Assembly (NCBI GenBank): GCA_033819885.1
Contig: JAQYUZ010000016.1
Coordinates: 240,925-304,924 of the forward strand
Direction: 5' to 3'
Source of the DNA: Microbotryomycetes sp. JL201
Lineage: Eukaryota; Basidiomycota; Microbotryomycetes
Length of the DNA stretch: 64,000 nt
The notes beneath the pieces were generated by a model. It ran no database searches. It was given only the letters and a program-made list of their open reading frames with translations, and was not told the DNA's origin. Below, piece by piece: positions 26,972 to 56,272 of this stretch (positions are counted from its first letter, which is position 1; each line of letters begins with the position of its first letter). The translations under genes and the position numbers were made by a program.

Positions 26972-27972
26972 ATGCCGCCCGCTAATAGCTGCAGGAATTG
27001 TTTAAGCCGCGATCATGGCTCGCTGGGCGAGGACGTCCTGTGCATTCATGGACGCACTGACCTGATCCTGCAGCCGCTAAAGGACAGGATGAGACGCGAC
27101 AAAGTGCACGCTATTGTTGCGTCCGCTCTAGATGTCTGTGGGGTCTTTCTCAGCGGCGTCAGTCTGATGCTTGGTCCAAGTTCGTGCTGGATAGGACGTT
27201 GGCACACCCTTTACGCGGCGGCCGAGGCAGACGTCGCGAAATGGAAACACAACCTGGCGAATTTCACGATTGAGGGCATGCAATGGGTGTACCATCAAAT
27301 TGCTCTCACACCGTTGCAACTGGCTGAAGCAGGGCGGATGACTACACCTTTGTCCGAAGTCAATCTTTCATCGCTTCCAGCATATTGCGCCTCGCTGACG
27401 TGTCGTCCGCGCCAAACAGTTCTTTATGGAGCCGAATATTTGTCAGGCAATCGCCCATCATCTGCAGCTGGAATTAAACTGATACCTGTCTTACTCAGAT
27501 AATCGTTTGCATTCTGCCTACGTGAAGCTTTGGAGACAGGGCAAGTGCTCGCCTCTCCAGTTCAGAGCCACACAAAGGCAGCTCATCTCGGGTGTTTGCA
27601 GACCGGGGTGCGGGCCCCATCCTCGTACATGCACCCGACATCGCGCGAATGCAGTGTTATACGTTTGCTGCAGGCTCACTTTGCATGCTCGGGCTGAGGG
27701 TAGGTTCTTCAGGATTGGCTGCAACTTTACTCACAACTCACGCCCGAAAAATGCATTAGCATGTGGAGTGGCTCACATTTGCTCAAGCCGTTTCAAGAGT
27801 TGCTGGAGGTTGCGCTCTGCATCACGACCCTTTGGATCAGCAGCTTCTCCGCCACATGCGATCCGTATCGGGCCAGCCTCTCGTGTGTGCGAAAGCTGTT
27901 TCTTGCTCAGTCCTGTTCACTGATGAGCTGGTCGCTCCAGGACTTGGCCCCCGAAATCAAACAGCTCAATGA
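26972..27972 (+). CDS. Unknown-family module G1 (first of tandem array)
   Basis: This is the first module of an unrecognised paralogous family. From the ATG at 26972 it reads EDVLCIHGRTDLILQPLKDR, then the hydrophobic helix SALDVCGVFLSGVSLMLGP. The second conserved motif (ARMQCYTFAAGSLCMLGLR) ends at a phase-0 donor at 27700. It is followed by a tail exon from 27760 (HVEWLTFAQAVSRVAGGCAL). The middle part (about 27450-27560) could not be placed in one frame, so there is either an extra intron or a lesion. The tail frame runs to a stop at 27972, overlapping the start of module G2. A 58-nt intron (27883-27940) would instead splice the tail in frame into G2, making a two-module protein. No known domain is recognised. 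Confidence 0.45.
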
Positions 27973-28943
27973 TACGCTTCGGCTTTTACACGATGGCGAT
28001 ATGGTGCTCGGCCTTCCTTACATTGACGAAGATGCCAATACGCTGCGTGAACGGTTGCGTCATCCTCTTCGAGTTGTGGCCTGCCTTGTGATGCAACTCA
28101 GCATGATGGCTTCGCGCGATTCAGCCGGGTCACCCAACGTCGAGTCGTTGTGGCACAGCTGCATCATTGCAGAAGCGCAGCTCGTCTCGTTCCTCGAGCA
28201 CTATGAGACGCTGGACCAGAATCAGCTTGCAGCGCTGTCGGCGACATTAGAGAGCAATCTTAGTTCCTGTGTCGATGTCCACTGGAACTCGCTCGCAAAG
28301 GTATATTCTCGGTGCTTTCGCCAGGGGGTCAAGCTCATGCGTCTCTTTCAGGTTTTCCTCAAACCGGAACACCACCGCATCTTGCGCAATTTGCTGCACA
28401 GCGCATCAAGTGCCGCTCAATCAAAGAGCCTCGAGCTCTCACTTCAAGAGGCGTCGCAATCGAGCAATCTCGATGAGAAGAGACTCGTCCAAAACGCGCT
28501 CACGACAGCGCTCCAAAACTTTGACCACTTGCGACTGTACGACATAGCCCTGTTTCTCGCGATCGCAGGAGGACTACGCGTAGGGTCACTGGTTTTACAA
28601 GACGAAACAGGCTGATTCCAGATTGACAGGGTCTAGCTGATTTGAAGCGCTGGCTTAACCATTGCAGCCAGAGGATTGAGATGCAGCAGCATGGTCCAAG
28701 TCTGTCCAACGAAGCACGCGAGAGTATCACACAAATGTCGGAACATTTTTTGTCTGCTCACTCCGACTCGGGAGCGCTTTACAGACTAGTCTTTCAATCA
28801 CCGGCGTACGCACACGCCGCTTCGCTGACCAAGAGGCAGCGTCAAAGGTATAATCGGACCGCAATCCAACGGTATTGAAACTTGCAGCACCGCTTGAGCT
28901 CGGTGCTGACAACAGCGACAGGTGGATGACCGGTCTTGAATAG
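27923..28943 (+). CDS. Unknown-family module G2
   Basis: With its own ATG at 27923, four exons (27923-28300, 28352-28579, 28630-28847, 28922-28943) give 281 residues. Exon 1 has the family N-motif (NDTLRLLHDGDMVLGLPYID) and a hydrophobic helix (LRVVACLVMQLSMM). Exon 2 begins VFLKPEHH, matching the F-x-x-(T/K)-P start of exon 2 in other copies, and ends HLRLYDIALFLAIAGGLR at the phase-0 donor. Exon 3 is the Trp-Leu tail (GLADLKRWLNHCSQRIEM). The three-part exon structure is the same as in module G5 and in the copy at 43.9 kb. The module may be translated as the second half of a G1-G2 fusion. All segments look helical, and no function is known. Confidence 0.6.
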
Positions 28944-28966
28944 TTTTTTACGCTGCGAGCGTGGTT

Positions 28967-29752
28967 ATGCATTCTGACAACCGCTTTCCCAGTTCGCCAG
29001 ACGTGCTCAGGAGCGCTGTCCGCCTGTCCGCGGCAAGACGACCCAGTTCAAGGGCGTGCCAACTTCGTGATCCTGAGCCACGTCCCATTGCTCGGTATCA
29101 GACATTAGAGAGGAACTCAAGATACTGCTGCGATCACTCGGTCCCAGCTACAGTGCGCTTGTGCTGGACGACGCTACTCCACACGAAACACCTGAAACGA
29201 GAACGAGGCGTCTACGCGTCCCGGTTCGGTTGATGGCATGTTTCTTGACTTGGATTGATTGCGTTCACATGGTGTCCCCAGCGCTCCATCTGTGCGATGA
29301 CTTGTTGCGTGCGAAAGACGAATTGCAAGGTCTGCTCGGAATCATTGACAAAGAATCCCCAACGGACCAAGACGTTGCCACCTTAGCGACTTTTAGAGCA
29401 GAGTTGCTTGCCATTCGGGAGGCTGTTAGTACCGGATCCCTCCCGCGCGTGAGTTTCCGGCCTTCTTGGCTGCTTGGCAAGGCTGATTTCAAAATTGCAG
29501 CTGTTCTTTTCGACACCATACAGTTCTGTCGACCGAGCTGATGTTGACACTTGCCTGGCTCATTCCCTGCTCGACACGGTGAAAGGCGACGATCCGCTGA
29601 GTTCGCTCGCGCGAGATCGCATACTCCAGCTGCCGCTTTACGATGCGGTCATCGTCGTCGCCGTCGGGCATGGGTTAGAGGTCAGCTTGGAAAGTCAAAG
29701 ATTGGACTGCTCTTGACTGAACATTGCGCAGGGGTTGCATTTCCGTAAGTGA
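28967..29752 (+). pseudogene. Unknown-family module G3, probably degenerate
   Basis: A family copy is clear from LKILLRSLGPSYSALVLDD, the hydrophobic helix VRLMACFLTWIDCVHMVSP and an exon-2 start LFFSTPYSS after an intron at 29449-29500. The second motif LPLYDAVIVVAVGHGLE ends at the phase-0 donor at 29681. Two defects suggest decay. First, no ATG opens the exon-1 frame; the ATG at 28967 lies in another frame and would need an implausible 35-nt intron. Second, the tail exon (from 29732) meets a stop after six codons instead of about 60. A functional but diverged gene cannot be excluded without RNA data. Confidence 0.45.
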
Positions 29753-29935
29753 CTGGGGATCAGAACGTGTCATTGTCCGTTAAAATAAGTGAGGAACGCA
29801 CAAGGGACTAAAAAAAAAACCCCGGAGGAAAAGGAGGAACAAGCAAGTTTCGCCGTTCTATCTAGGAGCTTGAGTACGCGAGCAGAAAGTCGCAGCTGTG
29901 CTGTCTACGTTTTTCTTCTCCTTCTCTCTCGGCTC

Positions 29936-30937
29936 ATGGACGCAAATCAGCACCAACGCCAGTTCAAGTCCTTGGGAGACCTTCTTTTGCATGGCATAGG
30001 CAGGAGCGATCTCAGGCTCGGCGAGCTACTGGGGATTCCATTACCAACAATGGAACAGAGCAGCGCGGTTCTGAGGCCAGCTCTTGAAACGGCGCATGCT
30101 TTCATGTTGAGCCTCGAGCTTTTCTTGGGACCCTTCCCTGTTTGAAAACTAGGCTGGTTGTCTTGGCGCGACAAAGCCCTCTCATGGGTGCGCGCCAGCC
30201 AAAAAGCTGTCACTCACGGCACTATGATCCTTGATGTGTACAGAGCGCTGGGAATTTATCACGAACTGAATGCAAGATTATCCGCACATGCGGTTCAGGA
30301 TCAGCCATGTTCCCAGGTACGTCAGACATGCTCCGCCCTTGCACTTACGTGAACGACTGACGTCCCCTGGCTGATAGTTTGTTCATAATGCTGAGCTTCG
30401 TGGCAAGCTTGCACGCGTCTTGGCCAAATTGGTGGCACATCACGATGCTCAAGCAGAAAGAGGCGGAGGTGTCAAAATCAGCGCCCTAGTCGAAAGCTGG
30501 TACGGGAGTCGAAAGCTGGTACGGGTATCAAGCACACCAGGAGCACTCTTCCACAGAACTCCTGTCTGCTCCTTCCCGCGGGGATCCACGATACTTTCTC
30601 ACTGAATTACGCTTCATTGATGCCGCCGCCATCATGCTTGTACTTCTCGGGTTCCCTGTCAGTCCAAAGGTGACACGTTGAGAGGAAAATTCGCCCAGAT
30701 CGTCTGACATCTTGGTACGCATAGAAACCCGACAGTTCTACGCACAATCCAAACTGGCTGGGACACGTCACTCGCATCGCGTCGATGAACGTGTCCATGA
30801 CTCCGCAACTTGTTTGGCAACACAAGGATCTCGAGCTTGCTCGTCTGAGCGAAGAAGTCTCGGAATTTGAACATTTAGTAAGCCAGGAAGAATGGACCAG
30901 AACAAAGTCGCTCATCGATTGTCGGCCTGCATCTTGA
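29936..30937 (+). pseudogene. Unknown-family module G4, pseudogene
   Basis: The three-exon family layout is preserved: 29936-30316, 30378-30657 and 30725-30937. The N-motif is KSLGDLLLHGIGRSDLRL with helix ALETAHAFMLSLELFLGPF. The second motif is LRFIDAAAIMLVLLGFP at its phase-0 donor. The tail has NPNWLGHVTRIASMN. Two lesions break it. An in-frame TGA at 30143-30145 falls directly after the Gly-Pro-Phe helix, with homologous sequence continuing in the same frame. A perfect 19-bp tandem duplication at 30488-30525 shifts the frame of exon 2 by one. Without the extra 19 bp the second exon would be 261 nt and keep frame. Both lesions together point to a recently inactivated copy. Confidence 0.7.
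30488..30525. repeat. 19-bp tandem duplication
   Basis: The unit AGTCGAAAGCTGGTACGGG occurs twice back-to-back (30488-30506 and 30507-30525) with no mismatch. It lies in exon 2 of module G4 and accounts exactly for that exon's frameshift. Confidence 0.95.
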
Positions 30938-30980
30938 GCAGAGCTTGAGTCGACCATCTCGGGAAGCTCTGAAATCTCAG

Positions 30981-32099
30981 ATGCTTCTCAATCGACAATT
31001 GCTTGGCCTCAATCATGAGTCGTTTCAAGAGAGCTTGAAATCATTCCACGATCAACGGCAGGATCCTCTGATCCGCAACCGAGCCGAGTTTTCCCCCCGC
31101 GACGACAACATGATGGTTATGGGGGTGAGGTATTCATATGAATCCGCCTCGGCAACCAGAAAGCGGTTGGTCGGTCCCTTTGCACTGGTCTGCTACGTTT
31201 TATTTTGGCTTGAATGCAGCCACTTGCAGTTTGCTCCGGCCGACGTTATCGCAAATGTCAATCAACTCAAAATCGAGCTCAAAGCCGGACTTGAACTATT
31301 CCTTGAGCCTCGTCTGAGCCAAACACAAGCCCAGGCTCTCGACGGGTGGTACCACAAGCTCTCGACCAGGCTTGATTCGTTGGCGGCTGCCGACAGGAAT
31401 GACCCTCTGTTCAAAGCAAGTGCGAACCGCATGTGCTCGAGAAAGCTACGACTGATGAATGTTTTTGCAGATTTTCATGACGACGCCCGTCAGTGCTGAC
31501 GCAAAGCTTCAGGTGAAAGAACGTCGCGAACTCGACAGCCCTTTGGTACTATATCTACTTGAGAAAGGCCAGGACGACAGATTCGAGTCGACAGACCACA
31601 CGAATGACTTGGACGAGCTCCTGCAGTACGAACAGACACAGCAGACTGGGCAGTCCAGCCCGGTCTACTCACACAGTCCAGCAGAACACCTGAACAAGCC
31701 CAGAAGCGAAATCTTGCGCGAAAACCTTGCTGAATTTGTACATGCTCATGCATATCAACTGCGCCTTTACGATCTTCTCGTCGGTTTATCTCTCAAGTTT
31801 GGCATGAAGGTAACGTCTTTTGCCTGTCCGCATGTCACCGTCTTGCTGAGGTATCGATACGAGGGCCTGTCCAACGCACGAGTGTGGACTGAGCGCGCGA
31901 TCGATAAGCTGCCCCCCCCCCCCACAAGGCGCTCGAAATTCGTAATGGCGAGCTCTATCGCACGATGGATCCACAGAGGCAAAGTCATGTCGCGGAGCTT
32001 TCCCGAAGGGCGCAGCGACGGTACAAGAAAACCGTCGGAAGAGCTCAACAATTACTGGACTGCAAGGCAGTGAGAGGATTCTTGTCCGAAGTTTTTTGA
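30981..32099 (+). CDS. Unknown-family module G5, intact three-exon gene
   Basis: This is the cleanest member of the array: 30981-31415, 31471-31809 and 31929-32099, all phase 0, giving 314 residues. Exon 1 has the N-motif ESLKSFHDQRQDPLIRNRAE and the helix LVCYVLFWLECSHLQFAP. Exon 2 starts IFMTTPVSAD and ends QLRLYDLLVGLSLKFGMK. Exon 3 is a basic helical tail (RRAQRRYKKTVGRAQQLL). The first intron is GC-AG (GCAAGT...TGCAG); the nearest GT would break frame. The second intron carries a run of about 12 C just before its acceptor. The gene ends only 60 bp from the stop of the convergent chitin synthase gene. The function is unknown. Confidence 0.7.
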
Positions 32100-32159
32100 C
32101 GAATACTTGCAATGCACATATTCTACATACATACGGAAGGCTCAGCCTCAACCGCCTAG

Positions 32160-35100
32160 TTACTCTTTCTCGGTCAAATGCTTGCCCTCGTCGCCGACGT
32201 CTGCAAAGCTGATTCCTTTACTCGCCTTTTTCTGCTTCTTGACTTTGCCTGTCGCCGCTTTACCGTCTGAAGCTGCTCCAAAGATGCCGCCTTTGAAGCC
32301 CCGACCGAGTACACCACCGAGTTTTGATGACGTGCTCGTCGACGCTGGCAACTTGCGAGTGCCAACTGTCGAGGAGGAAGACCTGCCGAACGTGTTGACG
32401 AGCCGCCCACCGAATAGCCTGACGGCTCGGTCGATGACAAACGCTGTCGATCCAATGAAACGGATGAGTGACACTGCCAAACGAAGAGTCAGCGCAAAGA
32501 GCAGGGGTCGCTTCTACTGAGTATAACTCACTGACTGCCACAAAAACAAGGACGAGTACCAGATCTGCCAATTGGTTCGTCAGCTAGCGTCCTAGCATAC
32601 CCACGTTATCGCCTACAAATCTGTGTGCGACCGTTGCCGCCCTTCTTTGTAAACGTGGTCGAGATGTCGCCTGCTACCACTACAGACACCAAGACAGCCT
32701 GTTTACGAATGTGAGCGTACGAAAATGGTCCTCATTTCCGTCGAGCTCACGTTCGACAGTACCCAGGCCATGAGCACATTAGTCCTGACGCTAGCGTAGA
32801 AGTCGGCGATCGCCTCAATTTTGGCTTTGGCGGACAACGGCGGGGGAACAATCATAGGGGTCGTCTTGAGATTGTGCAATGAACGATCATAAGCCACGTC
32901 TGCATTTTTACCAACGTTAACGAGGTGTTCAATCCAAAACGCTGGACGACTGACCTATGTCGGCTTGATCAGAAGGCAGGGTCATGTCAACCGTATCCTT
33001 GCCAACCTTCTTGGTAATGCCTAGATCGATTTCGTTTGTCGTCTGCTCCTTGGTGCCCCAACTGAAAGATCAAAAATGAGCAAGAACTCCCACTGTCGAG
33101 GACGCGACGCACGAAAAGTCATGCACTGTGAACATGGCGAGTCAGTCTCGATTCCTTGCCGACCAACTGCACCAGACTGACAATTACAGAAGGCGAAAAT
33201 GTTGAGCAAGTTGATGTATATCGGGGCAAACAGAAGGTACTGTCCCATGCTCGTGACCAGGTGCCACGGGTCCATGGCAATCAGACTGCGGCACGGCTTG
33301 TGAGCGGTGTGTAGACCCAATATCGCGTGTCTCATACCTTGCGAGAACGTAGCACCCATATGTGCTCATGAGAGAAATGACAATTTGAGCCATGACAGCC
33401 GATTCCGCCATGCCGCCGACAGCCTTGACAACGCAAAAGATTGCGGCACCGATCAAGTAAGCCGTCTCCAGCGCGAGTAGGATCCTGCAAGGCCGGGCAT
33501 CAGTAATTGGGAGAGAGTGCGTGTCTTGCAGTCTTACATGACGACCATGTATTTCCACTTGGCTGCTTTTGGCCGATTGCCCATTGATAAAATGAAGCAT
33601 GCAATGATGGTGCCAATGTACGCGTTCTGCACGAGGGCGTTGGCGTACTTGATGCCAGTAAGCTTGAAGGTGGGATCTTCAAGTGAGGTCGTCAAGATCT
33701 GTTACGGCCAGCTTGTCAGCTCGATTTTTGTTCGCTCGCCAGAAAAAAGCCTGTTCACCATGGTGAATATCCAATAATTAGCAATACCAAACCAAGCAAA
33801 CAGCAGCAAGACGACGTTGTAGATTGCTTGCAAGAACAAGACAACCAATTTTCGCCGCGAGTGTTTCGTTCCCAAGAGCTGGAATGTATGTGTGAGGGCG
33901 TAGAAGCTTGCGAAAAAGCTACCATTCAACCATCGGCGACGCTGCGAGATGAATTCGTGGATCGTGTCGGGCACATCAGTCTCGCCTTGTGCGCTCTTGA
34001 CAAACTTGAGAACCCAGTTATGACCCCTCTTTGCGACAAGCTCCCAGCAGAGGATGCGGTCTTCAGCGAGGTACATATTCGAAGTGAAGACGTCTGCGTC
34101 GTAACCCGCCAAAGTCTCGCCCTTGAAATAGGAAGCCAGCGGTCCGTGGCCTAGCTCATCGTTTTTCAGTGCAATGTAGCGGTATGCGGAAAATGCGCCC
34201 GGAAGCACGGTGATGTATCCGAAAATTGATTCTGTCGGCTTGTCGAGAATGTCTGATGCCGTCCATATGTTAGCTGTATTCTACTTCACCGCCGACGTCA
34301 ACGCACTGGAAATTTTGTACTCGAAGTTCTGGGCAGCCACTAATGGGTTGAGTAGTCCGAGCCACCATTTGCCTTTCATCGTTACGATCTCTCCGCAGGC
34401 GCCGCCGACGTTTGAATTGAGATCAAAGGCTTTCCATAGATGGTATAGGGACTTGTCGCCCGGTTTCGTGCCCACGTCGATGAGCATACTGTTTGGACAG
34501 GACTCAGCTGAGGATGTTTGTCTCTCACACGCCCACTCACACAATGTTGGGGTCCAACTGAGGCGCAAAAGCTTGCAAGGCCCAGCGGTGGCTATTGAGC
34601 TTTTTCGCGTTCTTCTCTTTCAGGCAAAACATGATCTGAGTAGGAACGATACCCTTCTCTAAGCCTTTGAACTTGAGGTCGGGTGAGATGGACATTTGTG
34701 CCGTATACTCATAAACGTGTGCCTGCACCGTCTCCGAATCGATTTGATTCGTGGCAAGACCTTCTTGGTATACTCCGAGTGCCGAAAGACAATCAAGAAT
34801 CCGCGGATGAATAGCCTTGCGACCGTCAGCGACAATACAAACGACGACCTCTGCCGGAACAACAGCATGAGCACTCTATGTCGAGCTTTCGTGCATCGTG
34901 CTTACTCTTCCAGCCGTCTTCGCCCCACGTCTGAGATTTTTTTCGCTTGCACAAATGGGCGATATTCTTCATTATACCGTGCAAGGTCCGACAAAAGAGC
35001 TTCTCATCTTCGTTGTACAATGTGATGACGACGAGCAGCTCCGTTTGTCGATTGTAGATCGTCGGCCGAAGCGTGTAATTGTGTTTATCAAAGTCTTCCG

Positions 35101-36025
35101 GCTGGATAACAAGGACGTTAGAGTGTGCACCCGCAACAAAAAGCCGATGAACCTACTCCGCAAGTCACGGCCGTGTAACGCGTCAACATGAATTCGTCGT
35201 CACCCTTGCGAGGCAGGAAACCAGCCAACCGCGTCGGAATCGCGCAGTCGAGTACGAGATTACCTTGAGTCAACTTGACTCGCCTGTTTGTCAAGTTGCG
35301 CCTGAGGTGTGCAGTCTTTGCGAATGAAAATGTCAGCTTCGCCCCCTGGCCAGACTCGAAACATTGCTTACCGGCGGTGGAGCGCCGAATCCGCCTGTGA
35401 ACGACATGGCAGGACTGCCCATGTCTTCCTCCTCGTCCTCTCCCTCGTCAACTTGATGTTCATTGCCGAGTGGTCTCTGCTTCTCGTCGATCCATTCAGA
35501 GTCTCCTTCGAACGAGTCCTCGAATACGTCTTGTTGGTTTTCTAGGTCATCGTCGTCCTCCATGGCCATGTATGTACCCGCAGCGCCTTGCACTCGACCT
35601 CCGGGATTGGCAACAACGTCCGCCGAGGCTCGACCAGACCTCGCAGCATCCTGTCGAGCGCTCTGAGCTGTTGCAGAATATCCGTTGTGGATATAGTAGC
35701 CGTCGTAAGGCGCTTGCTCCCCTTCAAGGCCCTGGTCGTCCACAAAGCGAGCATGTTGACTGACGTTGGCGCGTCCCGTCACTGCGCCGAACCGTTGCTC
35801 CACGCCAGTTGAATAAGGCTGAGCCGAGTCGTCAGATACATATATGACTGGTCCGTTGACGTCTGTCGAGTGAAAGGACGGTGGGTGGTCGTGCGAGTGG
35901 TCGGACGGCGGACCGGCGGCGTGCATGCCTCGCATCTCCTCGTCGTACGCCGAAGAATCGCGTCCAGGCGGCGGTGACGTGTAGCCCATGTAGGCGTCGG
36001 CGTGCGGACGCCGGCTGTACGCCAT
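32160..36025 (-). CDS. Chitin synthase (class I-III type)
   Basis: A roughly ten-exon gene on the minus strand. It starts at 36025 ([20 protein letters not shown]) and ends at a TAA at 32160-32162. A disordered acidic N-terminus of about 220 residues precedes the neck [16 protein letters not shown]. The GT2 catalytic core contains [61 protein letters not shown] and the diagnostic QRRRWLNGS. Membrane segments follow ([33 protein letters not shown]), then the switch-like SWGTKEQ region. The last TM pair ([10 protein letters not shown] and [20 protein letters not shown]) leads to a Ser/Lys-rich tail. The enzyme polymerises UDP-GlcNAc into cell-wall chitin at the plasma membrane. Exon boundaries near the 3' end were set by matching the conserved C-terminus. 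Confidence 0.92.
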
Positions 36026-36153
36026 GGTGCAAGCGCTAAGACCGGTCGCACAAGAACAAAACAAGTCGCGCCCGTCACGTGACGTCATGAATACGCGTGA
36101 GTCTCCTGATGGTGACAACAAAGAGCAGAAATATACATGTATAGAGGAATCAT

Positions 36154-42218: not shown

Positions 42219-42348
42219 GGCGCAGAATATTTGTTACCATGCATGGAGGAACCTTGAAAGAGAAACTCAAGAAGCTTGCACGTGTTGGGATCCCGTCTTT
42301 GCTCGACAAGTGCTTGCGTGAGTTTGAAGCACATAATCAAGTGTGGTG

Positions 42349-42665
42349 TTCGGGAAGTGTTGACGTCCTCGCAGACGAGCTTGACGCTGTGAGTTTGTCA
42401 AGATCCTACCAGGGCATGTTATTGTGCCACGACGGCATTTTGTCTTACTGCAAGTCAGAGCTCGTTCGAGACTCTGTGGAATAAAAAAAAAGGGGTCAGA
42501 CGTGCTACTTGACCACGCTCGTCAGAGATGGTCGAGACAGGCTGAGCTCCTGAGCCCGGATCGGGATCGGCGGCGGCTCAACCCCGGGCTTGAACGAGAT
42601 GACACCAGCCTGAAAAAGCTTCTCGTACGTTGCCTTGAGCACTTTGGGCCAGTCCTCGAACACAC
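42349..42665 (-). pseudogene. Decayed fragment of ATP-citrate lyase gene
   Basis: Two blocks match the intact ACL gene at 45.2-50.0 kb in the same orientation. 42349-42500 resembles 45738-45895, including both exon and intron sequence (for example GACGAGCTTGACGCTGT-like and CTCTGYGGAAYAAAAAA-like matches). 42508-42665 resembles 46364-46545 (CTTGACCACGCTCGTCAGAG, GTACGTTGCCTTGAGCACTT-like). About 470 bp of the parent lying between them is missing. Many substitutions and small indels destroy the reading frame. Intron sequence in the copy means it arose by DNA duplication rather than retroposition. Confidence 0.8.
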
Positions 42666-43110: not shown

Positions 43111-43608
43111 ATGAGCGCTGCTGCGCCACCCAACTTCACGTCTGCACTCTCGGGGATTGCAAAGCTTGACCAGCCAAGCGATTACCTGCGATGGTCACGG
43201 AAGGTCCGACTTTACCTCGAGCTGATTGACTGCTGGGGAGTCGTCGATGAATCCGAGGCCAAACCAGCTGAAAATGCAGCGGTAGAGACGTTCAAGACTT
43301 GGGAGAAGAAGGACAAGTCAGCTCAATGGGCGATCGTCTCAACTGTCGAGGGATATTAAGAGGACGTACTCGAGCAGTTGGAGACGGCCAAGGCCATGTG
43401 GGACGCGCTGGAACGCCGCAACAGGAAGAGCGGCGCGTCAGGACTTTACTCGTTGCTTACGGAACTCGTTTTTATGAAATGCTCGGACTCGGACGACGTC
43501 AAACAACATCTACAGAAGATGAAGAACATTGCTCAGAAGCTGGACAAGATCCCGAGCTCGGAAGAAGTCATCGAAACTGTCGTTCGCGAGGCAGACCGTG
43601 TTGCCTGA
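43111..43608 (+). pseudogene. Copia gag fragment (UBN2/gag-polypeptide type)
   Basis: The frame starts MSAAAPPNFTSALSGIAKLD, and its ATG lies within the putative primer-binding site. It contains the classic copia-gag signature YLRWSRKVRLYLELIDCW, then AMWDALERRNRKSGASGLY and KQHLQKMKNIAQKL. A TAA at 43357-43359 interrupts the otherwise continuous frame. Translation would end at the edge of the right LTR. There is no zinc knuckle and no pol. The element is inactive by itself. Confidence 0.8.
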
Positions 43609-43857
43609 GGCATTTGCCATCGAGGCAATCGGTCATTTGACTTCATTCAGGTTCTTCGGTCTTCTATCTGGCTCTGAGTCATCAAATTTCATTCTGCTGC
43701 ATTGCAAAGCCAGCCTGCTGAGCTTCACAGCCCTTGCTTTTTCAAAAACATTCCCTGCGGATATCCTATCCCGGCTGGTTGTAGCAGCTTCTATGGATGA
43801 GAATTTAATCTCTGATTTCAATAATATTGTTGGCGGCACTCGCCACAAGTGACTTGT
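43599..43857 (+). repeat. Right LTR of copia element
   Basis: Direct repeat of 42853-43101. It starts TGTTGCCTGAGGCATTTGCC immediately after the gag remnant and ends near GTGACTTGTC. Confidence 0.75.
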
Positions 43858-43890
43858 CGCAGAGTCGAACTGAAGCCCCGGCCCCGTTAT

Positions 43891-44914
43891 CTAAACCATT
43901 CGGGCCCACTTGCCATTCAACTGGCGAGTTGTGATGCCGTAGCGTTCCGATTGGCGTCGAGTGAGCTCTGCGGCGCATGACGTCGAAGTGCCGTTGATTG
44001 CGTCTGCGAGCTTGTCGTTCGCAGCGGGAACAAGCGAAAAGCTAGCGTCCTCTCTCTGCTGCTCCAGCCACGAAGCCGAATTTTTAAGTCCCTGCGAATT
44101 TCTCAAATCAGTCATACCCTTCAGATGACCCTGCAAGTCGAGATCTCACCGCCCAACCTGCCGCAAGCAGAGCGAAAACAATCAGGTTGTACACCCGCCA
44201 ATCACCAAAGCCTCTGAAGTTGGCGAGTACCACCTTGTGAGCTGGCGTACCACGCTCGACACTTCTTTTCAGAAATGTAGCGCAACGTTCCCAGAGTTTG
44301 TGTCTCAAAACGTTGACTGACATGAAGAAGATTTAGCCATATAGGTAATAGGTCAGTCCAGAAGCACACGTACCACAGTGTGATGCAGTGTCCAATCCGA
44401 CTGGCTGCGGTGAAATGAACATCTACACCAAAAGAGGTGAGCACGTAGCAAGCACGAAAAGTTCAGACACTTGACTGACATCAAGCAGCTCTTTGACGAA
44501 ACCGTTTCTCCAAGGTCTCTGAGGTGGCGCGAGTGGGCGAATGAACAGTGTAGCGTGCTGCTCCTGAACCTGACTCTTTGACAGTCTAGACATTGTATCA
44601 AGTCTGTCCGTCAGCGCTGAAATTGCTTCATCTCGCATTTCTTGCATGTGCTCGGCCGATTCTACACTGCCACAAACGTTGACCCAGCTTGATCTGGGCC
44701 CGATGAATCGCTCGATCCCGCACAAAAACGTCAAACAAACCCTAAGAGCGACTCGGTCGTTCTTCAACAGGTTTGCCTTTGTTTGTTGAGCCTGTAGCGG
44801 GAAAAGCACCAGAGAAGGCCAGCCGTGCTTGCAGAGCTCGGTGCTGATCGGGTCCAGAGACACATCATGCACGCAACGACACGAGTGACAAGTCAGGACA
44901 CTGACTCTTGGCAT
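43891..44914 (-). CDS. Unknown-family single-module gene H
   Basis: Four exons (44914-44471, 44422-44374, 44316-44150, 44091-43891) join in frame to 286 residues; an in-frame ATG at 45046 is an alternative start. Exon 1 has the N-motif TELCKHGWPSLVLFPLQ and the hydrophobic helix RVCLTFLCGIERFIGP. The next exon starts MFISPQPVG, matching the F-x-x-x-P start seen in the array. The second motif DWRVYNLIVFALLAAGWA ends at the phase-0 donor, and the tail exon begins NSASWLEQQREDASFSL. No stop or frameshift is present, so this copy looks functional. It sits between a copia remnant and ACL and belongs to the same family as the 27-32 kb array on the other strand. No known domain is recognised. Confidence 0.7.
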
Positions 44915-45221: not shown

Positions 45222-48200
45222 TTAAGCGTTGTTGCCACTGACCAAGACACGCTGCGACTCGAACCTAGACAAGAGCGGTGTCAGCGTGCGAGCAGCCTCA
45301 CGTGCACAAAGGTGGGACTCACTGTTGGATAAAGATGTCGTCGGCAGGGTGACGGTACAGAGGCTGCTTGAGGCGCTTCTGGTCGAGGTGGTGACCGATG
45401 AAACCGATCGAGCGACCAAGCACGAACAAGCCGTTGAGCGTGCCGATCTGTGACCACCATGTCAATCACGAGGCCCAACGACTCATTTCAATCGATCCAC
45501 TGACCTTCATGTACTCGGCAGCCTCTTCGGCAGTGAATGCGCCAGAGCACCTGAGCAAATCGCAGAACGAGACTGCGATCGCGCCGTCGACGTTGAGAAT
45601 AAGTGTGTCTATGGGCACACAAGCCATCGCGTCAGTGCATGACATGAAGAGGCGGAACTGCCAAACGCCAACGCTTACCCTTCTTTGACGTCGTAATCTC
45701 TTGGACGGCGAGCGCGTAGTCGAGCGTGTCTGTGCTCGGGAAGTGTTGCTTCACGTACTCGCAAACGAGCTTGACGCTGTTGAGAGAACAAGATCGTATC
45801 AGAGCATGTCATTCGGGCACAACCGCATTTCGTCTCACCGCAAGTCAGGGTTCGTCTTGGACTCTGCGGAACAAAAAAGATCAGAACTGGTATTTCTCGT
45901 TCAGAGTTGATCGAGACCACGCACTAATCTTGTGACCAATGCCAGGGATGAGTTTGTTTGCCTTGCGCATAGAATCGACAAACTCGCGAGGCGTCTGTCC
46001 CAAATCCTTGGCCCGAGTGAACTCGGCAGCAGCACCATCGAGCGCACCACCGAACCGGTCACCGATCGTCAACAGACCAGCAACGAGTGACGAAACAAGA
46101 TCTTTGCCGGCACGAGTCGTAATGACGGTCGTCATCGCACCAGAGACGGCAGGACCCTGCGAGAAAGCTTTGATCAGACAGGTAATCGGGGATCACAGCC
46201 CAGACTCGACTGACGTGATCAGCGGTCAACATGAGAACCATCTCCAAGAACTTGCAGGCGTAGTCGGGCAGACGGCGTTTGAACCACAGCAAAGAGACGA
46301 CACCACCGATGCCAATGTCCTCCTTGAAGACGTCAGAGATGCGCATGCCGGCGTACAAGAGTTCTTGACCACGCTCGTCAGAGATGGTCGAGATGAAGGC
46401 AGCCGGCTTGCGGATCAAGCCGAGCTCCTGAGCCCACTTGTAATCCATCGGGATCGTTGGCGGTTCAACCTCGGGCTTGGGCGAGATGGCACCGGCCTTG
46501 ACGAGCTTCTCATACGTTGCCTTGAGCACTTCAGGCAAGTCCTCGAAAGTGGGAGGCACGATGAAGCCTGCGGCTCGCATGGCGTTGTTCTTGGCTTCGG
46601 CCGTCTCAAGGTCAGAGTTGGCCATCGAACCGGCGTGGCCGAACTGAACGTCAGTAGCGAACATCTTGGCGCAGGTACCAATAGCCCATGCGACAATCGG
46701 CTTCTTGATCTGGCCGGACTTGACCGCATCAATGACGCGGTATTCCTCGACGCCACCGACTTCACCGAGCAAGACGAGCATCTTGCAGTTGGGGTCGGCC
46801 TCGTATCGGAGCAAGTGGTCGATGAAGGTTGTGCCAGGGTAGCGATCACCACCAATGGCAATACCCTCGTAGGTACCATTGGTCGCTGAAGTTCAACTCG
46901 ATCAAAAAGAATTCGCGGCAGGCTGACGAGATCCTACTCACTCAGAGACAAGATGTTGTTGAGCTCGTTGGACATGCCGCCAGATTTGGACACGTATGCG
47001 ACAGAGCCAGCGCGGTACAGCTTGGATGAAAGAATGTTGTCCATCATACTGAGAGCACATTCGGTTAGGACAAAACACTCCTCTGTGCGGGCAAAGGCTG
47101 ACTCACCCTCCGGTGTTGCCGATGCGGAAGCAGCCGGGCTTGATGCCACCGACTGTTGCAGGACCAATGATCATGACGTTCTTGCGCTGCGCACTCCACA
47201 GGATCTCGCGAGCATGTCGCTCAGGAACACCTTCGGCAATCAAAGCGATAGCCTTGATGCTTGGGTATTGCAAGCACTCCATCGTCGACTGGTACACCGA
47301 GCGCGAGGAAGCAAAGTTGACAACAACGTCTGCGTCAGGGCACTTTTTAATGGCCTCCTCCATCGAGGTGAAGACGGGCAAGAGGGTTTCCTTTGTGCCC
47401 CAGTAGAACTTTTGAACGTGGTGACCGCCGAACGGGTAGATCATGGCTGCAACTGAAGGCGTAGCGCGGCCGCAAGCAAAGTCAAAGTCGAGCATGCCTT
47501 GGATGGCGCGAGGTTGGAGACCAAACACGAGCGAGCGAGTCTTCTCGTCAAATGGACGGTACCAAGGTCGCGATCCGTCAGCAGGCGTCGACTCGAACGT
47601 GACGATACCGTCCTGTGCAGCGTCGGCGCGCTCAATCGATATGTTGTGCTTGCTCGAGCCGGAACCAGAGGCAGAATCAGCAGCGGCGCCGTTGACAGAA
47701 GGGGAAGCCGAGCCGTTTGCGACGACAGGAGCAGAGTCGGCAAGGGTTGCAGCCTTCTTGGTGATGCCGAGACCGAGAGGCACGATAGTTGTGATGTGCG
47801 ACTCTGGGCCAAAGACCTCGATAGGGACGCCAAGACTCTCGCCGAGCAAGCGCATGGCCTTGAGACCCTCCTGGTAGTTTGGTCCTCCGCGGCGAACGTA
47901 GATGCGAACCTTGTGCTCTTGAAGCTTGAGTTGATATTGCTTGAGAGCGGTGATGATGCCCTTGAACGTGGCAGCGACGTTGGTGAAGTTGGCGATACCG
48001 CCACCGATGAATAAGACCTTGCCGTTGGGCTTGGGTGTGCCGCGGGTCATCAAGTCCACTGCGAGCGGGTCAGGTCAGATGCCGAACAAGCCAGCAACCA
48101 TTGTTGGACACTCACGAATGGTCTTGGCGTATTCGTACGTCTGGTTCTGCGTCGGCGCACCAGAGTATTCGCCGTAGTTGGCTAGCTCGTTGGCGAAACC

Positions 48201-50011
48201 GTGCGCGCAAATGGCATCACTGTCGACCCGCAAGATTAGTGTCTGCAGCACCACGGCGCGGCGCCCAACAGACTCACGAGTAGACGACTGAAGCACCGCC
48301 ACCAGCAACCATGGTCCAGACGCTTCCCTCGGCATTGAGGACAGTCAGCTTGAGCGAAGCACCGGTCGAGCCGTCAAGCTTAGAAATATATGCCTCTTCC
48401 TTGGTCAAGTCGCGACCGAATCTAGGTGAGGATCGGTGTCAGCTCTTGCCTGCAGTCACAAGCATTGTAAACGACTAACGGCGGGGGCCAGACCATGCCA
48501 GGTCCACGGTCCGAGAGGATTGGGCCGCTGGTCTGTTGGGCCAATGCGGGGTTGACGACGGCAGCATCGCGAGCGATAGCCCACTTGGGGCCGACAATGA
48601 ACTCTGCGGTTTGATCGAGCTTGGCGGCCATGTCCAAGTAGAAGATTTCAGTCTTGCCGTCCACTTCGACAGCAACGAGAGGGTTGATCTCGAGGTAGGC
48701 AAAGTGCAAGTCGACGTAGACAGAGTACAAGCGTGCGATAAAGTCAACGAGCGCTTCCTTGACTTCACCTCCCTTGACGTCCTTGAGCAGGCCTGCCTTG
48801 ATCGTCTCGCGGTCAGGCAGCTCGCCACCCACGGGCACGAGCAGTTTCAACGCCTTGGCGTCAACGTCACCAACTTCGACACCGCCTTCGTGCGTGAACA
48901 AGATGATGTCGCCCTCGCGAACAGAGTTGATGCAGACGTAAAACTCGGAGTCGGCCGGATGAGGCAAGAAAGGTTCGACGATGAAGGTGTTGAGGGTACC
49001 GACAGTCTTTTCAACCTGTGTATGGCAAACAGAGTTAGAAGCAGAATCAAATGACCGATCTGCTGTCAACTTGCTTGCACGTGCTTGCCAGCGCGCTCCT
49101 CGATCCATTTGCGGCCGTCGGCCCATGTCTTGTTGAGACCGCTGTAAGAATTTAGAAATTGTGTCAGCCTCGGGCCATTCAGGTTAGGTTCGAGTGGACG
49201 TCGACTTACAGCAGTCCAGCCTTGCCGCGTCGCTTGATCAATTGATCAGGCTTGACCACAAGCTTGTCGGTGAAGACCCAGTTTGGCAGCGCCGAGTCGG
49301 GAGTGATGGTGTTTGACTCGGGATCCCATTTCACCTGATGACGGAGATATCAAGTTGGTCAATTGCCGTTCGCCAAAGGACAGTAGGCTGGTAGATTCGC
49401 AAGTCGGTTTCGGGAACCGTGGGTCCGCGCACTTTCACATGTAGCCGAGACTGGCGCGACACGCATTCGGGCTTGACTCGGCAGCTCGATTGAAGCTTGC
49501 AGGAGCTCGGAGTGTCACTCGACGCGTGTGTATCGGTTGCGGGTCAAGCAGACCGGCGCGCGGACAATGTCTGACTGCGATCGCCGGGGTTGGGGGTTGG
49601 GACCTCGGATCTCGCCGGCGAGGGCAGATGCTTGTATCTTTCGAGTGCGGAACCTCTACATGCAAGTCCAAGGGACACGCCTGGCTCGTCCAAGTCGTCA
49701 AAAGAGCTCACCTGGGCGACACGAGTGTTGGGAGCCTTGAACGAGTCGCGGACCGTGCACTGCTTGCCATGCAGCGGAGCCCGCGACAGGTGGTACGCCA
49801 CCAACAACTTGGCTGTTGTTGAGCATAAAGAGCGTCAGACCGTTCTCCAACAGGTCAGGCGCGCGTACGAGGCAGGAGCGACGCCCAACGCGCGCGCACT
49901 CGCGAAGAAACTGACCGTCGTATTCGGCAATGGGCTGACACGCAAGCAGGACAGGTCAGGATTGGGGTGCGATCTCGATTGATCATGCTCCAAACTCACT
50001 TTTGATGCCAT
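45222..50011 (-). CDS. ACL1: ATP-citrate lyase, fused single-chain form
   Basis: This is a many-exon gene starting with a 12-nt exon (MASK, 50011-50000). It continues [18 protein letters not shown] and [19 protein letters not shown]. The ATP-grasp half includes [31 protein letters not shown] and [21 protein letters not shown] disordered Ser/Ala linker follows [14 protein letters not shown]. The CoA-ligase half contains the phosphohistidine motif [10 protein letters not shown]. The C-terminal citrate-synthase-like domain contains [33 protein letters not shown] and [20 protein letters not shown]. The fused order matches animal and basidiomycete ACL. The enzyme makes cytosolic acetyl-CoA and oxaloacetate from citrate, feeding fatty-acid and sterol synthesis. 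The stop is at 45222-45224. Confidence 0.95.
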
Positions 50012-51871
50012 GGTGGGTGGGAAAAGAACGAAGGGGTGAAAAACGAGCTCGGGACTGGCCTCGAAAGCCCCCAAAATCAGCTGCGCGCGTTTGCAGGTCA
50101 ACGGCGGCGACACGTCGATCTCCGACAGGGGTCATCAAAGCTACATGCATGCTGCACACGCCCAGCGTGCACAGCTCATGAGACGTCTGGCGTCAAAGTC
50201 ACGTGCCCGCAACCTCTGCCGTCGTCCAGGCGAAAAAAAGTTTTCGCTGTCATCGACCAAGTGTCGCGCCGTCAGCCGGCGGTGTGCAGAGTACGTGAAA
50301 GGCAGACACAAAATAAGGCATGTGCAGCAGGAACAGCCCAGTATCACGTGATGCGTTCAGACGAGCGCAAACCAGTCTCGCGACCGTAGCCGCCAGACTT
50401 TCGTGGCTGAGGCCGAGTGGGAGACTTTTGCTCGGCCACGAGCTGAGCTGGGCCTGCTGTCGAACGGGGGAGTGAACAGTCGGTGAGCAGAACACTGTGT
50501 GGCACGTGATTGAACGTCGATTGAGCAGTAGCGGAACCGCTGATCGCCACATGCTAATCGTTCCGCGACTGTTTTCCGTTTCCGAAGCGCTCAGGCCCGG
50601 TGCGCGGCGAACGGTGGGGCCAAGTTCCGATGACCCGTGACTGCGACTCGCAATGGTCTCAATTCAACACGGAATATAGCTACAACAGTTGGCTCGAGTA
50701 CGTCCTTCCTTCAGCAGCTGATAACCATAATCAGGCTGCAGGAAAACGAAACAGATGACTCTTTGCTTGTGACCCGTTGACGATTTCGCATGGAGTGCAT
50801 TTGAATTTTTGCAGGTTTACAATATCCTCATCTGCATGTGCACGTAGGCATTGCATGCTGCTCTGTTCTGTACAAGCACATTTCAGACACCCCGCACGCG
50901 GTCCGGCCACCACAAAAGTTGTGTCGTCCCGAAGTTGTGGCAGCAGTGCAGTACAGCTCAACGCCATTTCGGTCATGCCCAGCATGCCGGCCGAGTCTAC
51001 CAAGAGAGCTAAACGAGCAGACGAGCGGGTGAGATAACCGGTGACGCCACCAGAAACGTGCAGCAGCATGCTTGCGACCTTCGCGGAGAGCCGAGCACAT
51101 ACGGCGTCCAGTCATGCAAACTTTCCGAATGATGTGGATGACCAGTGCTCCTGCGAAAGTGATGGCAAGCCACCCTTTGCCCAGACGTAATTTACTGGGC
51201 CGAGTTGGAATGTATCCCGGATACGCACTATATTTATCATTGGATGTCGTACGTGTTCGCATGGTGCTTCTAGAATCGCGACAATCTTCGCAACGAACTC
51301 TTGCCACGTCATTCACGTCATTTCGCTGCTCGCTCGGCGACTCGGGGAGCTGCACACCGACCGCCCGAGCACCTGCGAACGGTGCATGGTAGACACCAGA
51401 ATTATGTATACCATCAGCTTCAAACATGGGACGGTTCACACCAGTATAGAATGAAACGATGAACGAGATAGCTTTGCCACTATCGCCATGATGCAAACGA
51501 ATGAACGCCAGGCCACCGGAGTTGTCGCGACCGTCCCTTGGATGCAAGTTCGTGAAAGTGTGCACTGTGGCAGATGAGTTGCGGCGGAGCGGCGAGTCGA
51601 GTTTGCCGCCCGTGTCTGGCCCCAACGAAAATTTCCGAAGGCTGCTGCGCGCGCGAGAAAATGCGCAGCAATGAGCACGCCGACGCCACTTTGTCAAAAA
51701 CGCGTCGACAAGACGGCTCGCTTCTTGTCCACATCGCACTCTTGAGTGCAAACACGACGTTCCGCGACTCGCACACAGACTCATTCTTCTGCGACCCACG
51801 TGTATACGCACAACTTTCCAACTGTTGACAAGGCCTCGAGTGCCCCCCAACATCTCTTCAAGCCAGAGACA
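50012..51871. promoter_or_regulatory. Long divergent ACL-OLE1 promoter
   Basis: This 1.86-kb stretch, long for this compact window, separates the divergent ATGs of ACL and OLE1. CACGTG boxes occur at 50200-50205, 50345-50350, 50503-50508 and 51797-51802. The second is the 10-bp palindrome ATCACGTGAT. A 418-codon frame on the minus strand (50828-52084) overlaps OLE1 exon 1 and has no recognisable protein, so it is not called. CACGTG is bound by bHLH factors, including SREBP-type lipid regulators, but which factor acts here is unknown. Confidence 0.55.
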
Positions 51872-53679
51872 ATGGCTTCGACTGCTGTAACGAGCGCACT
51901 TGCTGTGCCGCCTAGTCAGCCAGCTTCTGGCACGACTGCTCAAAGCAAAGCTCCCCTCAGGAACAGGTTCCCTGGTACGTCTCGCATCCTTTTCTTGGCC
52001 GAGTGGCGCCGGGCCCGCGGACCCGTCCGGCTTTGTCATTCGTGGTTGCACTGCACCAGTACTGACCAGCGTTGCGTCTAACACAGATTACACTGAAACG
52101 CAAGAACCTTCAGAAGAGTCCGACACGTCATATTCTGACGGCGAGGGCGAGACGACTGCGGTTGATGACGGCTACGCGATTGACGACAACTACGTGCGCA
52201 AGGTGCTCGCCAAAGAAAAGCCGCTGCCGCCCATCACATGGAAGACGCTGCCACAAAACATTCAGGTTGTTTCAACGCTGGCTTTGACAGTCGTGCCTGC
52301 CCTGGCAATCTATGGCGCGTTCACGACTCAGCTTCAGCTCAAGACTTTTATCTGGGCTGTCGTGTACTACTTTTACACCGGCCTCGGCATCACTGCTGGC
52401 TACCATCGATTGTGGGCACACCGCTCGTACACAGCCAGCAAGCCGCTCCAATACTTTTTGGCCCTCGGAGGCTCTGGTGCTGTCGAAGGTTCCATCAAAT
52501 GGTGGTCCCGCGGCCACCGTGCGCACCACAGGTATACCGACACGGACCTCGATCCATACTCTGCTCAACGCGGCTTCTTGTGGGCTCACATCGGATGGAT
52601 GATTGTCAAGCCTCGTCGCCGACCAGGTGTTGCCGACGTGTCCGACTTGTCCAACAATGAGGTTGTCAAGTGGCAGCACCGCTGGTATTTGCCGCTCATC
52701 GTTGGTATGGGCTTCCTGTTCCCTACTCTCGTCGCCGGTTTGGGCTGGGGAGATTGGCGCGGCGGATTCTTCTTTGCCGGTGCCGCTCGTCTTGCTTTCG
52801 TTCATCACTCGACCTTCTGTGTCAACTCTCTCGCGCATTGGCTCGGTGACACGCCTTTCGACGATAAGCACACACCCAAGGATCATTTCCTGACTGCGTT
52901 GGTAACCATTGGTGAAGGCTACCACAACTTCGTGAGTTAGCATATCTGACTGTGCTCGGTTGTAGCAAGTATTCTAACCCTCTTTCGTTTCTCAGCACCA
53001 CGAGTTCCCTAGCGACTATAGGAACGCCGTCAAGTTCTGGCAATACGATCCCACAAAGATGTTCATCTACACCTGCTACAAGCTCGGACTCGCGTCGCAG
53101 CTCAAGACGTTCCCAGACAACGAGATCAAAGCCGGACAGTTCAACATGAAGCTGAAGGCCCTGTCCGAGATGGCCAACGATGTCAAGTGGCCTACTTCAT
53201 CCAACCATTTGCCTGTGTTGACTTGGGACCAGTTCCAAGAAGCGTCGAAAGAGCGCCAGCTCGTCGTCATCGGTGGCTTCATTCACGACGTGGCCGCTTT
53301 TATTGATCAGCATCCTGGTGGACGTGCGCTCATCAAGACCAGGCTCGGCAAGGACGCTACTCAGGCGTTCTACGGTGGATACTACGATCACTCGAACGGC
53401 GCTGGCAACCTGCTCGCCCAAATGCGTGTTGGTGTCATCGAGGGTGGCTACGAAGTCGAGGCGCTCAAGAAACATTCAGAGGTCATCGAGGCTCTCAAGA
53501 CATCTGGTGCCGCCGGTGTCAGTGGCAAGCAAAACGACCTCGCGACGGGTGCTCGCAAGACAGTTCCGATCAAGCCTGATCCTGCACTTGCTAGTCAACC
53601 TCTGCAACCGCTCGATCAACCTCCAAGACTAGACGATATGCGGTTGACTGGCGGCTTGACGCAATCTATCTTTGCATAG
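51872..53679 (+). CDS. OLE1: Delta-9 acyl-CoA desaturase with cytochrome b5 domain
   Basis: Three exons (51872-51974, 52087-52931, 52996-53679) give 543 residues. The desaturase has the three His boxes: HRLWAH, HRAHH (in [13 protein letters not shown]) and HHEFP (in EGYHNFHHEFP, joined across intron 2). Membrane segments flank them ([33 protein letters not shown]). The C-terminus carries a cytochrome b5 domain ([23 protein letters not shown]), as in fungal Ole1. The enzyme inserts the first double bond into palmitoyl- and stearoyl-CoA in the ER. The acidic N-terminus after exon 1 is typically regulatory. The gene diverges from ACL. Confidence 0.96.
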
Positions 53680-54139
53680 AACTTCGTAGTCTATCAGTCT
53701 CCTTTCGTTCAACATTCGTTCTAGACCGCATTCACGACGTATACCTTTCTCTTCCTGGCTGTAGTATAAGTTTTTGCTTTTGTGTTTCTGAAGAATGAGA
53801 AAGACTCTCTCTTTTTTCTAAACTGTTCGCGCAGAGTGCGTTGTCCTCTCCTGCTGTCACTGAACTTCATTGCACTAGTACTCGCTGGCCGAGTCAAATC
53901 CATCTGAGCTGCCGAAGCCGGAACAAGTACAACTTGCCAGCGAACAAGGGTCGCAGGCCGAAGCACATCACACTTCGTATTCACCATGCATGGGTTGCAT
54001 CCTGACTCATGGCAAGGGATGTGAGGTAGCAGAATTACGCGCGACAGGAATAAGCGTGCCTGTAAAAAATTGCACACTGTAACAAATTGCACAAACCGCA
54101 AAGTTCAATCGATCGTGTGTACCTCTCCCTTGAACAGTT
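53680..54139. other. Convergent intergenic region
   Basis: The 460 bp between the OLE1 stop and the end of the two-module unknown gene are T- and C-rich near 53740-53820, consistent with 3' UTR sequence. No gene is supported. Confidence 0.4.
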
Positions 54140-56272
54140 TTACGACAAGTACGCGACACGTTTCATTTTGTAAATCGAGCGCTGACGCGGAGAGAGCTGT
54201 TGTCGCGCCAGCGACTGAGCATTGTGTAGAGCAGGCGAAAGAACTGAACTCGGACGCGGCGACCATAAGATTGCAATAAACTTGTCTGCAAACTTGTGAA
54301 AGCGAGTTGACGACATGGAGCTTATTTCGGAAGCGTGAGTTTCCCATTCCTTGATCTTGGACATACCCTGATTCAGTAGATCCAATGCCTCAGTAACGCG
54401 CCTTTCTATCATCGGTGAGGCTTTTTGCTCACCCTGAAACCTTGAACGAGCAAAAGTACAACGGACAAAGAGTGGCTACTGAGGCGGTCGATACCAACTT
54501 TCGTAGCTTCGGACAGAATGGCTTGACAGTTTGCCTCAATGTCGTCGTTCTCATCTGCGCCTTGATCAATAAGCTCATCAATCTGCCTTGTCAGCTTCGA
54601 AGCCAGTGTTCCACCTGATCCAAAAGTACAGCGAATGTGAGCATCATCCTTTCACAAACCGCTCGGGAACTCACGAGTGATGGCGAAAAACTAGGCGAAG
54701 CGTAAAAAAAGAGTTAGATCCACCGAGATGAAAAACAGGAGCAATGTCCCTGAGACGCACCGTGAGCCATCTGTCGACTGTCAAGCCTGTCGTACTGAGC
54801 TTTAGCTCGCGAGCTTTATTCGCTTTGATAGTGAGATTAGTGAGGTTGATGAACGAGCTAATGAGTCCGACAGTCTTGGCGTCGCTGAAAGTGTTCACAT
54901 CGCGAACCAGATCGAGGCAGCTGTTGAGCACCTGTACACGCAAGTCGAACCAAGTCTTGAGATCGTTTTCTTGTGCGGTGGAGCCGTTAAACTTTGGCCA
55001 ATGGTGGGCTCCGCCGAGCGTGTGTTCCAGACCGAGTACGGAGAGAGCAAACAAGGCTGTCAGCCGTTTGAGGTCGTCATGTCTCTGTGCCAGCGAGACA
55101 TTGACTCGCGTTGAGGGCATCACCAGCTCTTGAAAACCATATTTGCACAAGACATCATCAAGATGGCGATCTGGGTGCTCTCGATGAGGGCAAGTCTCCG
55201 AACTAGATTTGCGTGTGTGGTGCAGAGCGTGACTCGAAGGCGAAGGAGCTTGCGGAATGACATGGCTCTCGATGGCAAATCTGCGCCAGAAAGACTTGAA
55301 CAGGTTTTGATCGTGGTGACTGAGCGAAGAAGCAGCCTCGATGAGCTCGAGCCACTCGTAAAATTCGTGGTGACCGGAACCCTGCGCAACATGTTGCCCA
55401 GTGAGCTGATCGGAGACCTATGTCTCCCCCTTCTCAACTCACGGTCCAGCCTTGCGTCAACAACAGAACCGCAATGAGCTCTGCCGCAGTCAGGTGTCCA
55501 ATGCCGTCTGGCTTCTGCGGCTGACGATCTCGGTAAACTGCAAAATCGAGCACTTGCCAGGCCTTCTTCATCCTTTCGTTGCTCGACCTGTCTGCCTTGC
55601 GTCCAAAAGCTTCGATCCGCAGCGGCAGAAGATGCTGTAAGCCATCGACTTGCAGTAGCGGATGACCAAAAAGAAAGGTTGCTATCAGAAATGCACCGAT
55701 AGACGCTCGAGCGAAGGGCTCACATGTCAAGGCAAAAAACTGTCAAGTAGGTCATGACCGATGGTGAGCAACCCCGTTGCTCGGCGGGTGTACGTTGAAC
55801 CACGTACAAAACTCCATGGTGCCTGGTCGAGATCGTCTTGCTTGAGACGACAGGCGATGGCTGCCTTTTCAGTCTCTGCCAACGAGTGTTCGTCGAGAAG
55901 GGTCTCAAGCTTCTCAGACACTTGATCACCGGTGAGCTCAGCGTTCAGCAGATGTATGCAACCCTCGAGCACTTTTCGACGTAGTACGGCCGCGGTCGAA
56001 AAGTCAAGGTGCCGCTGACGGTGGGGAATAGGTTCGAGGAGGACTTGTCCATGACCGTGGACAGCTGGCTCGAACGTTTTTTCCCACCCTAGTACTGAGA
56101 AGCCAAAGAGAGCAATCCACCGACGCAGCTCTCTTTTCTTCTCAACCTCCGACAAGCCAACAAATTCGGTGTCTGGCGCCACAAGGTCAGTAAAGCCGTG
56201 CCTGCACAGCTCCCTATCGAGAGCTCGCGGATGTGTCTTGTCGCAGCCGTCATGTCGGTCGTCGTCCGACAT
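54140..56272 (-). CDS. Unknown-family two-module gene I-J
   Basis: The minus-strand start is at 56272 (MSDDDRHDGCDKTHPRALDR). Module I has ELCRHGFTDLVAPDTEF and the helix RRWIALFGFSVLGWEKTF, and a later exon contains TFLFGHPLLQVDGL. Its second motif HLTAAELIAVLLLTQGWT ends at the GTGAGT donor. After a 61-nt intron, the tail GSGHHEFYEWLELIEAASSL runs without a stop into module J (RHLDDVLCKYGFQELVMPST, then LTALFALSVLGLEHTLG). Module J has a weaker second motif (SHSLSVVLLLVQG) and a helical tail (MIERRVTEALDLLNQGMSKI). The module I exon junction near 55740 and the exact 3' end near 54140 are uncertain. The unbroken read-through argues for one two-module polypeptide. No function is known. Confidence 0.55.

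Follow-up and report, generated by a model that had tools for sequence, protein, structure and literature searches.

The basidiomycete Microbotryomycetes sp. JL201 (subphylum Pucciniomycotina) carries, inside 29 kb of one contig, eight copies of a single protein-coding module that almost certainly make up one homologous gene family. The copies lie in a stretch of 64,000 nucleotides (nt), here called the window, which covers bases 240925-304924 and forms the terminal part of contig C8 (304,924 bases) in an assembly of 92 contigs and 17.15 Mb. An earlier note on this DNA had described a multicopy module family, and that observation as a whole is confirmed here by held-out profiles together with shared gene structure. 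The modules were rebuilt at the positions and on the strands given before: M1 to M5 on the plus strand (26972-32099), A on the minus strand (43891-44914), and C1 and C2 on the minus strand (54140-56272). Our overall best explanation, to which we assign a probability of about 0.4, is that they constitute a lineage-restricted orphan family of intracellular proteins under local birth and death. Coordinates are window positions unless a contig is named, and exon-intron structures are models derived from the sequence rather than from RNA. The members and two of their motifs are as follows.

26972..28878, plus strand: M1M2, an open two-module gene of 488 amino acids (aa), modelled with seven exons (26972-27358; 27420-27441, a 22-nt micro-exon; 27602-27699; 27760-27882; 27941-28300; 28352-28579; 28630-28878)
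27038..27088, plus strand: N-motif LCIHGRTDLILQPLKDR of M1
28529..28579, plus strand: motif 2 LRLYDIALFLAIAGGLR of M2, with a phase-0 donor at its end
29077..29752, plus strand: M3, a single module (exons 29077-29448; 29501-29680, opening LFFSTP; 29732-29752)
29936..31026, plus strand: M4, a broken copy whose right border is uncertain
31065..32099, plus strand: M5 (exons 31065-31419, 31471-31809, 31929-32099)
43891..44914, minus strand: A, an open single-module gene of 283 aa (exons 44914-44480, 44422-44374, 44316-44150, 44091-43891)
54140..56272, minus strand: C1C2, an open two-module gene of 577 aa and seven exons, which is GenBank OIV83_003187 (P0002; exons 56272-55808; 55739-55724, a 16-nt micro-exon; 55648-55443; 55381-54761; 54690-54675, a 16-nt micro-exon; 54614-54433; 54367-54140)

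Each copy was held out in turn, a profile was built from the other seven, and the missing copy was ranked among the non-training frames within the 8,771 frames of at least 20 aa on the whole contig. With N-domain profiles the missing copy ranked first in five of eight cases, with expectation values (E) of 2e-8 for A, 3e-4 for C1, 4e-4 for C2, 3e-4 for M3 and 0.02 for M1. M2 came second (E 1.6), M4 65th and M5 534th, so that the membership of these three is not shown by the N-domain alone. Of four tail exons, two were recovered first (M2, E 0.0015; A, 0.11); M5 came second (0.47) and C2 257th. Motif-2 exons ranked first for C1 (0.14), M2 (0.17) and A (1.2), none of them significant alone; the others placed 19th (C2), 42nd (M5), 75th (M3), 228th (M4) and 4918th (M1). 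Within the set of eight, pairwise comparison joined M2 to M5 (E 3e-4), M1 to M4 (6e-4) and M3 to M5 (1e-3), while divergence between copies reached about 20% identity. For M2, M4 and M5 the case for membership is made chiefly by gene structure and by similarity between pairs, for M4 specifically by its similarity to M1 and the position of its donor.

The pattern LC-x-[HY]-G occurs four times in six frames over all 304,924 bases, and all four occurrences fall within the family. An N-motif had been ascribed to every module; in this strict form it is present in only four of the eight. There are 22 occurrences of the motif-2 pattern [LWV]x[LVI]Y[DN] on the contig, 18 of them with an open 17-residue stretch, and a GT directly follows residue 17 in five of these 18. 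Four of the five are family members. The fifth, at a point 1.06 kb beyond the left edge of the window, lacks the Gly and was taken for a shadow frame.

Modules span roughly 190-290 residues and consist of four parts. First comes an N-domain, which in A, M1, C1 and C2 has a start bearing Cys and His residues and the motif LC-x-[HY]-G. In A and M1 a CxxC and a further His or Cys are seen ahead of LCxHG, and a zinc site in this part of the two modules is possible. The second part is a short piece opening with FFxxT, FFxxP or a similar sequence in seven of eight modules (FFALT, FFAIT, FFMEP, LFFSTP, VFLKP, MFISP and IFMTTP at the start of the exon after intron 1), and M4 opens with FVHNA. The third is a 17-residue hydrophobic stretch that ends in Gly-hydrophobic-x at a phase-0 donor. 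Finally, the tail carries a basic RQRxRY-like patch at the end of A, M2, C2 and M5.

The most constant feature is intron 3, which is placed exactly behind the Gly-hydrophobic-x of motif 2, in phase 0, in all eight modules. The earlier note was right that the donor falls after the same residue, but its count of seven must be raised to eight; for M4 the donor, at 30658, was taken from a splice-site list and its phase counted by hand. Intron 1 lies behind the N-domain and is in phase 0 in seven modules, with M5 leaving in phase 1. An intron 2 that had previously gone unmentioned interrupts A, C1, C2 and M1 in phase 1, where it leaves a small exon (49, 16, 16 and 22 nt, respectively). Of the other four modules, M2, M3 and M5 have an uninterrupted exon 2. 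Introns are of the GT..AG type and mostly 50-75 nt long, exceptions being intron 2 of M1 (160 nt) and intron 3 of M5 (119 nt). Of the 21 modelled introns, 15 passed a filter that asked for a good donor and a branch-point-like site (CTNAY). Furthermore, 21 exons, some of them with borders that predate refinement, were scored for composition in the three forward frames, and in 17 the modelled frame came out best. The shared intron positions and phases support common descent as one multicopy family, as had been proposed.

Among the open genes, the C1C2 model agrees letter for letter with the GenBank protein OIV83_003187, and the fusions reported earlier hold: C1 and C2 form a single two-module gene, as do M1 and M2 by model. 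The M1M2 reading frame is open throughout and ends in LTKRQRQRYNRTAIQRY. Three features of its model reflect our choice among possible sites: the first donor (GTCAAT), which is weak, intron 2 with its 160 nt, and a fusion intron at 27883-27940. Its first module has the 0/1/0 phases of C1, and its second is without intron 2. The model requires an additional intron between the modules, at a place where C1C2 has a continuous exon. GenBank model OIV83_003184 (176 aa) equals the last 176 aa of gene A; its start falls within exon 1, so that residues 1-107 are lacking, which indicates that the GenBank model is truncated.

Broken copies and clustering had also been noted, and both are borne out within the 29 kb. 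M3 is a truncated copy, open but with a first exon in which no start codon was detectable and with a six-residue tail, GLHFRK. In M4, exon 1 contains an in-frame TGA, and a perfect 19-bp tandem duplication (copies starting at 30488 and 30507; span 30488-30525) shifts the frame. Because both copies of the 19-bp unit are identical, the sequence suggests that this frame-shifting duplication is recent. Exon 1 of M5 exits in phase 1 and exon 2 is read from phase 0; M5 is therefore probably frameshifted and broken.

A tree of the N-domains places M2, M3 and M5, all without intron 2, in one clade (82/92, under the tool's starred level), and C1 and C2 as sisters (98/97, starred); its other forks are weak. 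By pairwise similarity M1 is, A aside, nearest to M4. The order M1-M2-M3-M4-M5, the likeness of M2, M3 and M5 and the proximity of M1 to M4 suggest that M1 to M5 may have arisen through duplication of a two-module unit.

Next to A, the segment 42853-43102 is a decayed duplicate (76%) of the stretch downstream of A (43599-43857). Similarly, 42346-42488 and 42508-42660 match, at 78% and 72%, two parts (45732-45878 and 46364-46547) of the gene upstream of A (45732-46547), which we take to be ATP-citrate lyase. These decayed duplicates show that the neighbourhood of A duplicates locally. Between 25 and 58 kb of the window there are no inverted repeat pairs of at least 24 nt. Direct repeats of at least 24 nt in this interval fall into five families, none of which flanks a module on both sides; one of them (D3) is found at a distance of 29 nt on the downstream side of A. 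No repeats that bracket the copies, as expected of transposon-borne genes, were thus found at 25-58 kb. No telomere-like repeat was seen by eye in the last kilobase of C8.

The family had been called lineage-specific. A search of 5.8 billion proteins (nr and metagenomes) supports this in part since, among the matches listed, only JL201's own two models were returned. However, that search needs shared 5-residue words and some copies are only about 20% identical, so that distant relatives would escape it. Comparison of P0002 with contigs of viruses and of bacteria gave 2 and 11 pattern matches, respectively, and none was confirmed. A profile scan of the full 305-kb C8 found no additional copy (for the three parts, the best non-members had E 0.22, 0.89 and 1.5), a scan that could miss copies as diverged as M4 and M5, which their held-out profiles missed. 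Five protein queries against the JL201 genome matched only within the 29-kb cluster. In these queries only A and M1 retrieved each other (E 4e-4 and 0.001); such diverged copies are therefore missed, and absence from other contigs is not shown. A genome-wide multicopy family is accordingly unsupported, no copy having been found outside the 29-kb stretch by searches that often miss diverged copies.

Searching with a DNA pattern for the RQRxRY tail produced 12 matches, whereas its reversed control produced 17, and no module turned up when the 12 loci were scanned together with two more. In that 14-locus scan the best hit to the N-domain profile, at L030:728-937 (E 0.034), was not on the strand of the pattern but on the other one, and was taken as chance. 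Among the papers listed from open-licence PMC text, none showed anything on strain JL201 or on this family.

The proteins are likely to be intracellular. When A, P0001 and P0002 were scanned for hydropathy, no hydrophobic N-terminus that could act as a signal was found (A begins MPRVSVLTCHSC and C1C2 begins MSDDDRHDGC). No membrane helix was found either, the best 19-residue Kyte-Doolittle values being 1.38 in A and 1.32 in P0002. Over their last 20 residues A has a net charge of +3 and P0002 one of +5. On the reading that we prefer, the copies would have spread by local duplication within the 29 kb, and their products would be soluble, largely helical and active inside the cell. As the likeliest role we propose, though with considerable doubt, that of a binding protein similar to a scaffold or recognition protein, in which the variable modules would make up a fast-changing contact surface that keeps pace with a changing partner. 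Doubling of the module would then provide two binding sites, and the basic tail might direct the protein to the nucleus or make contact with nucleic acid. Distinctly unlikely is a stronger version in which a structurally unprecedented module, present twice in two of three open genes, serves fast-evolving, lineage-specific intracellular recognition in self/non-self discrimination or conflict.

Several results weigh against the reading that we prefer. M4 and M5 were missed by the held-out N-domain profiles, and five of the eight motif-2 exons were not recovered. Six of the 21 introns fail the intron filter: intron 2 of C1, intron 3 of C2, the first two introns of M1, the second of which exceeds the length that the filter permits, and the final intron of both M3 and M5. 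Synonymous codon bias is uninformative, being too weak to show selection, and the propensity scan that suggests helices calls many strands too. Finally, the protein-database entries of JL201 for two genes of the family, OIV83_003184 and OIV83_003187, are both named only as hypothetical.

It is quite conceivable that the modules are instead a diverged offshoot of a known family, now beyond the reach of sequence methods and still performing the function of the parent family. With copies down to about 20% identity, loss of the signal that would connect them to relatives is expected. Nevertheless, and in keeping with the earlier failure to recognise a domain, no Pfam family was matched by more than one of the eight or six members at E values up to 10. 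Searches of P0001 and P0002 against Pfam gave no match, and no family member had a match above the curated cut-off; single weak matches were to BTG (0.06), HVO_A0114 (0.1), Swc3 (0.1) and Fuz_longin_2 (0.12). Sequence profile searches of the PDB likewise gave nothing credible (best E 0.16 and 2.1, another search being empty). The state of the broken copies, namely the in-frame stop and 19-bp duplication of M4, the frame mismatch of M5 and the short tail and undetected start codon of M3, speaks for relaxed, neutrally decaying duplicates, a graveyard with few live genes and no changing partner, and the adjoining sequence also holds fragments that were duplicated and then decayed. We consider this rather unlikely, for A, C1C2 and M1M2 stay open over 283, 577 and 488 codons.

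Clustering, divergence, module doubling and shared introns recall the bicycle genes of aphids, which were recognised as a family through shared intron positions at very low identity, diverge strongly and carry one, two or more copies of the module per gene (PMC9168663). Shared positions and phases are found here as well (the motif-2 donor in eight of eight modules, intron 1 in phase 0 in seven of eight), an analogy only, made without the resampled null used in that study. In contrast to the JL201 family, bicycle proteins are described there as made in salivary glands and as carrying signal sequences and CYC motifs (PMC9168663), whereas in the JL201 proteins scanned no signal is seen, and the modules share other motifs and have all their found copies in one 29-kb stretch. 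The hint of secreted effectors in the earlier note is not upheld by the hydropathy results, A and C1C2 having no N-terminal hydrophobic signal, and we regard an effector family as very unlikely. The idea that these are variable genes linked to the mating-type locus, which we think extremely improbable, draws on a gene for the ribosomal protein eL6 in the window, about 17 kb from the cluster. In red yeasts, eL6 flanks the pheromone receptor, and LSm7 and eL20 are reported to adjoin receptor alleles (PMC3236058, PMC2916851). The following genes of these kinds were located in JL201.

9322-9819 of the window: Ribosomal_L6e (eL6), by Pfam
C28:191174: eL20
C28:182046: LSm gene

None of the 14 LSm matches in the genome is on C8, and the single homeobox match of the genome is at C1:50920. 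A search for STE3, run without a positive control, gave no match. With eL20 and LSm on C28, the homeobox on C1 and eL6 alone on C8, linkage of the cluster to mating type is unsupported. Homeodomain mating-type proteins of basidiomycetes combine fast divergence, a basic patch and a divergent HD1/HD2 pair. The JL201 family has the first two of these features but, unlike those proteins, has no homeodomain by Pfam and occurs as same-strand tandem copies, the genome's homeobox match being on another contig. As a separate observation, the LSm gene and eL20 lie 9 kb apart, and C28:182046-191305 may be the receptor locus of JL201.

We have not found this family described, and it belongs to a kind already known, as from the bicycle genes (PMC9168663): fast-diverging, locally duplicated genes that are recognised by gene structure. 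In the lineage-restricted family that we favour, gene structure attests homology no less than sequence does, and single-module, two-module, truncated and broken copies stand side by side. The gene models are open to testing, and the family gives structure prediction and the comparison of sister yeasts a defined target. Should its fold prove new, or its copies vary from strain to strain, the Microbotryomycetes would seem to have a recognition or conflict process that is still unstudied.

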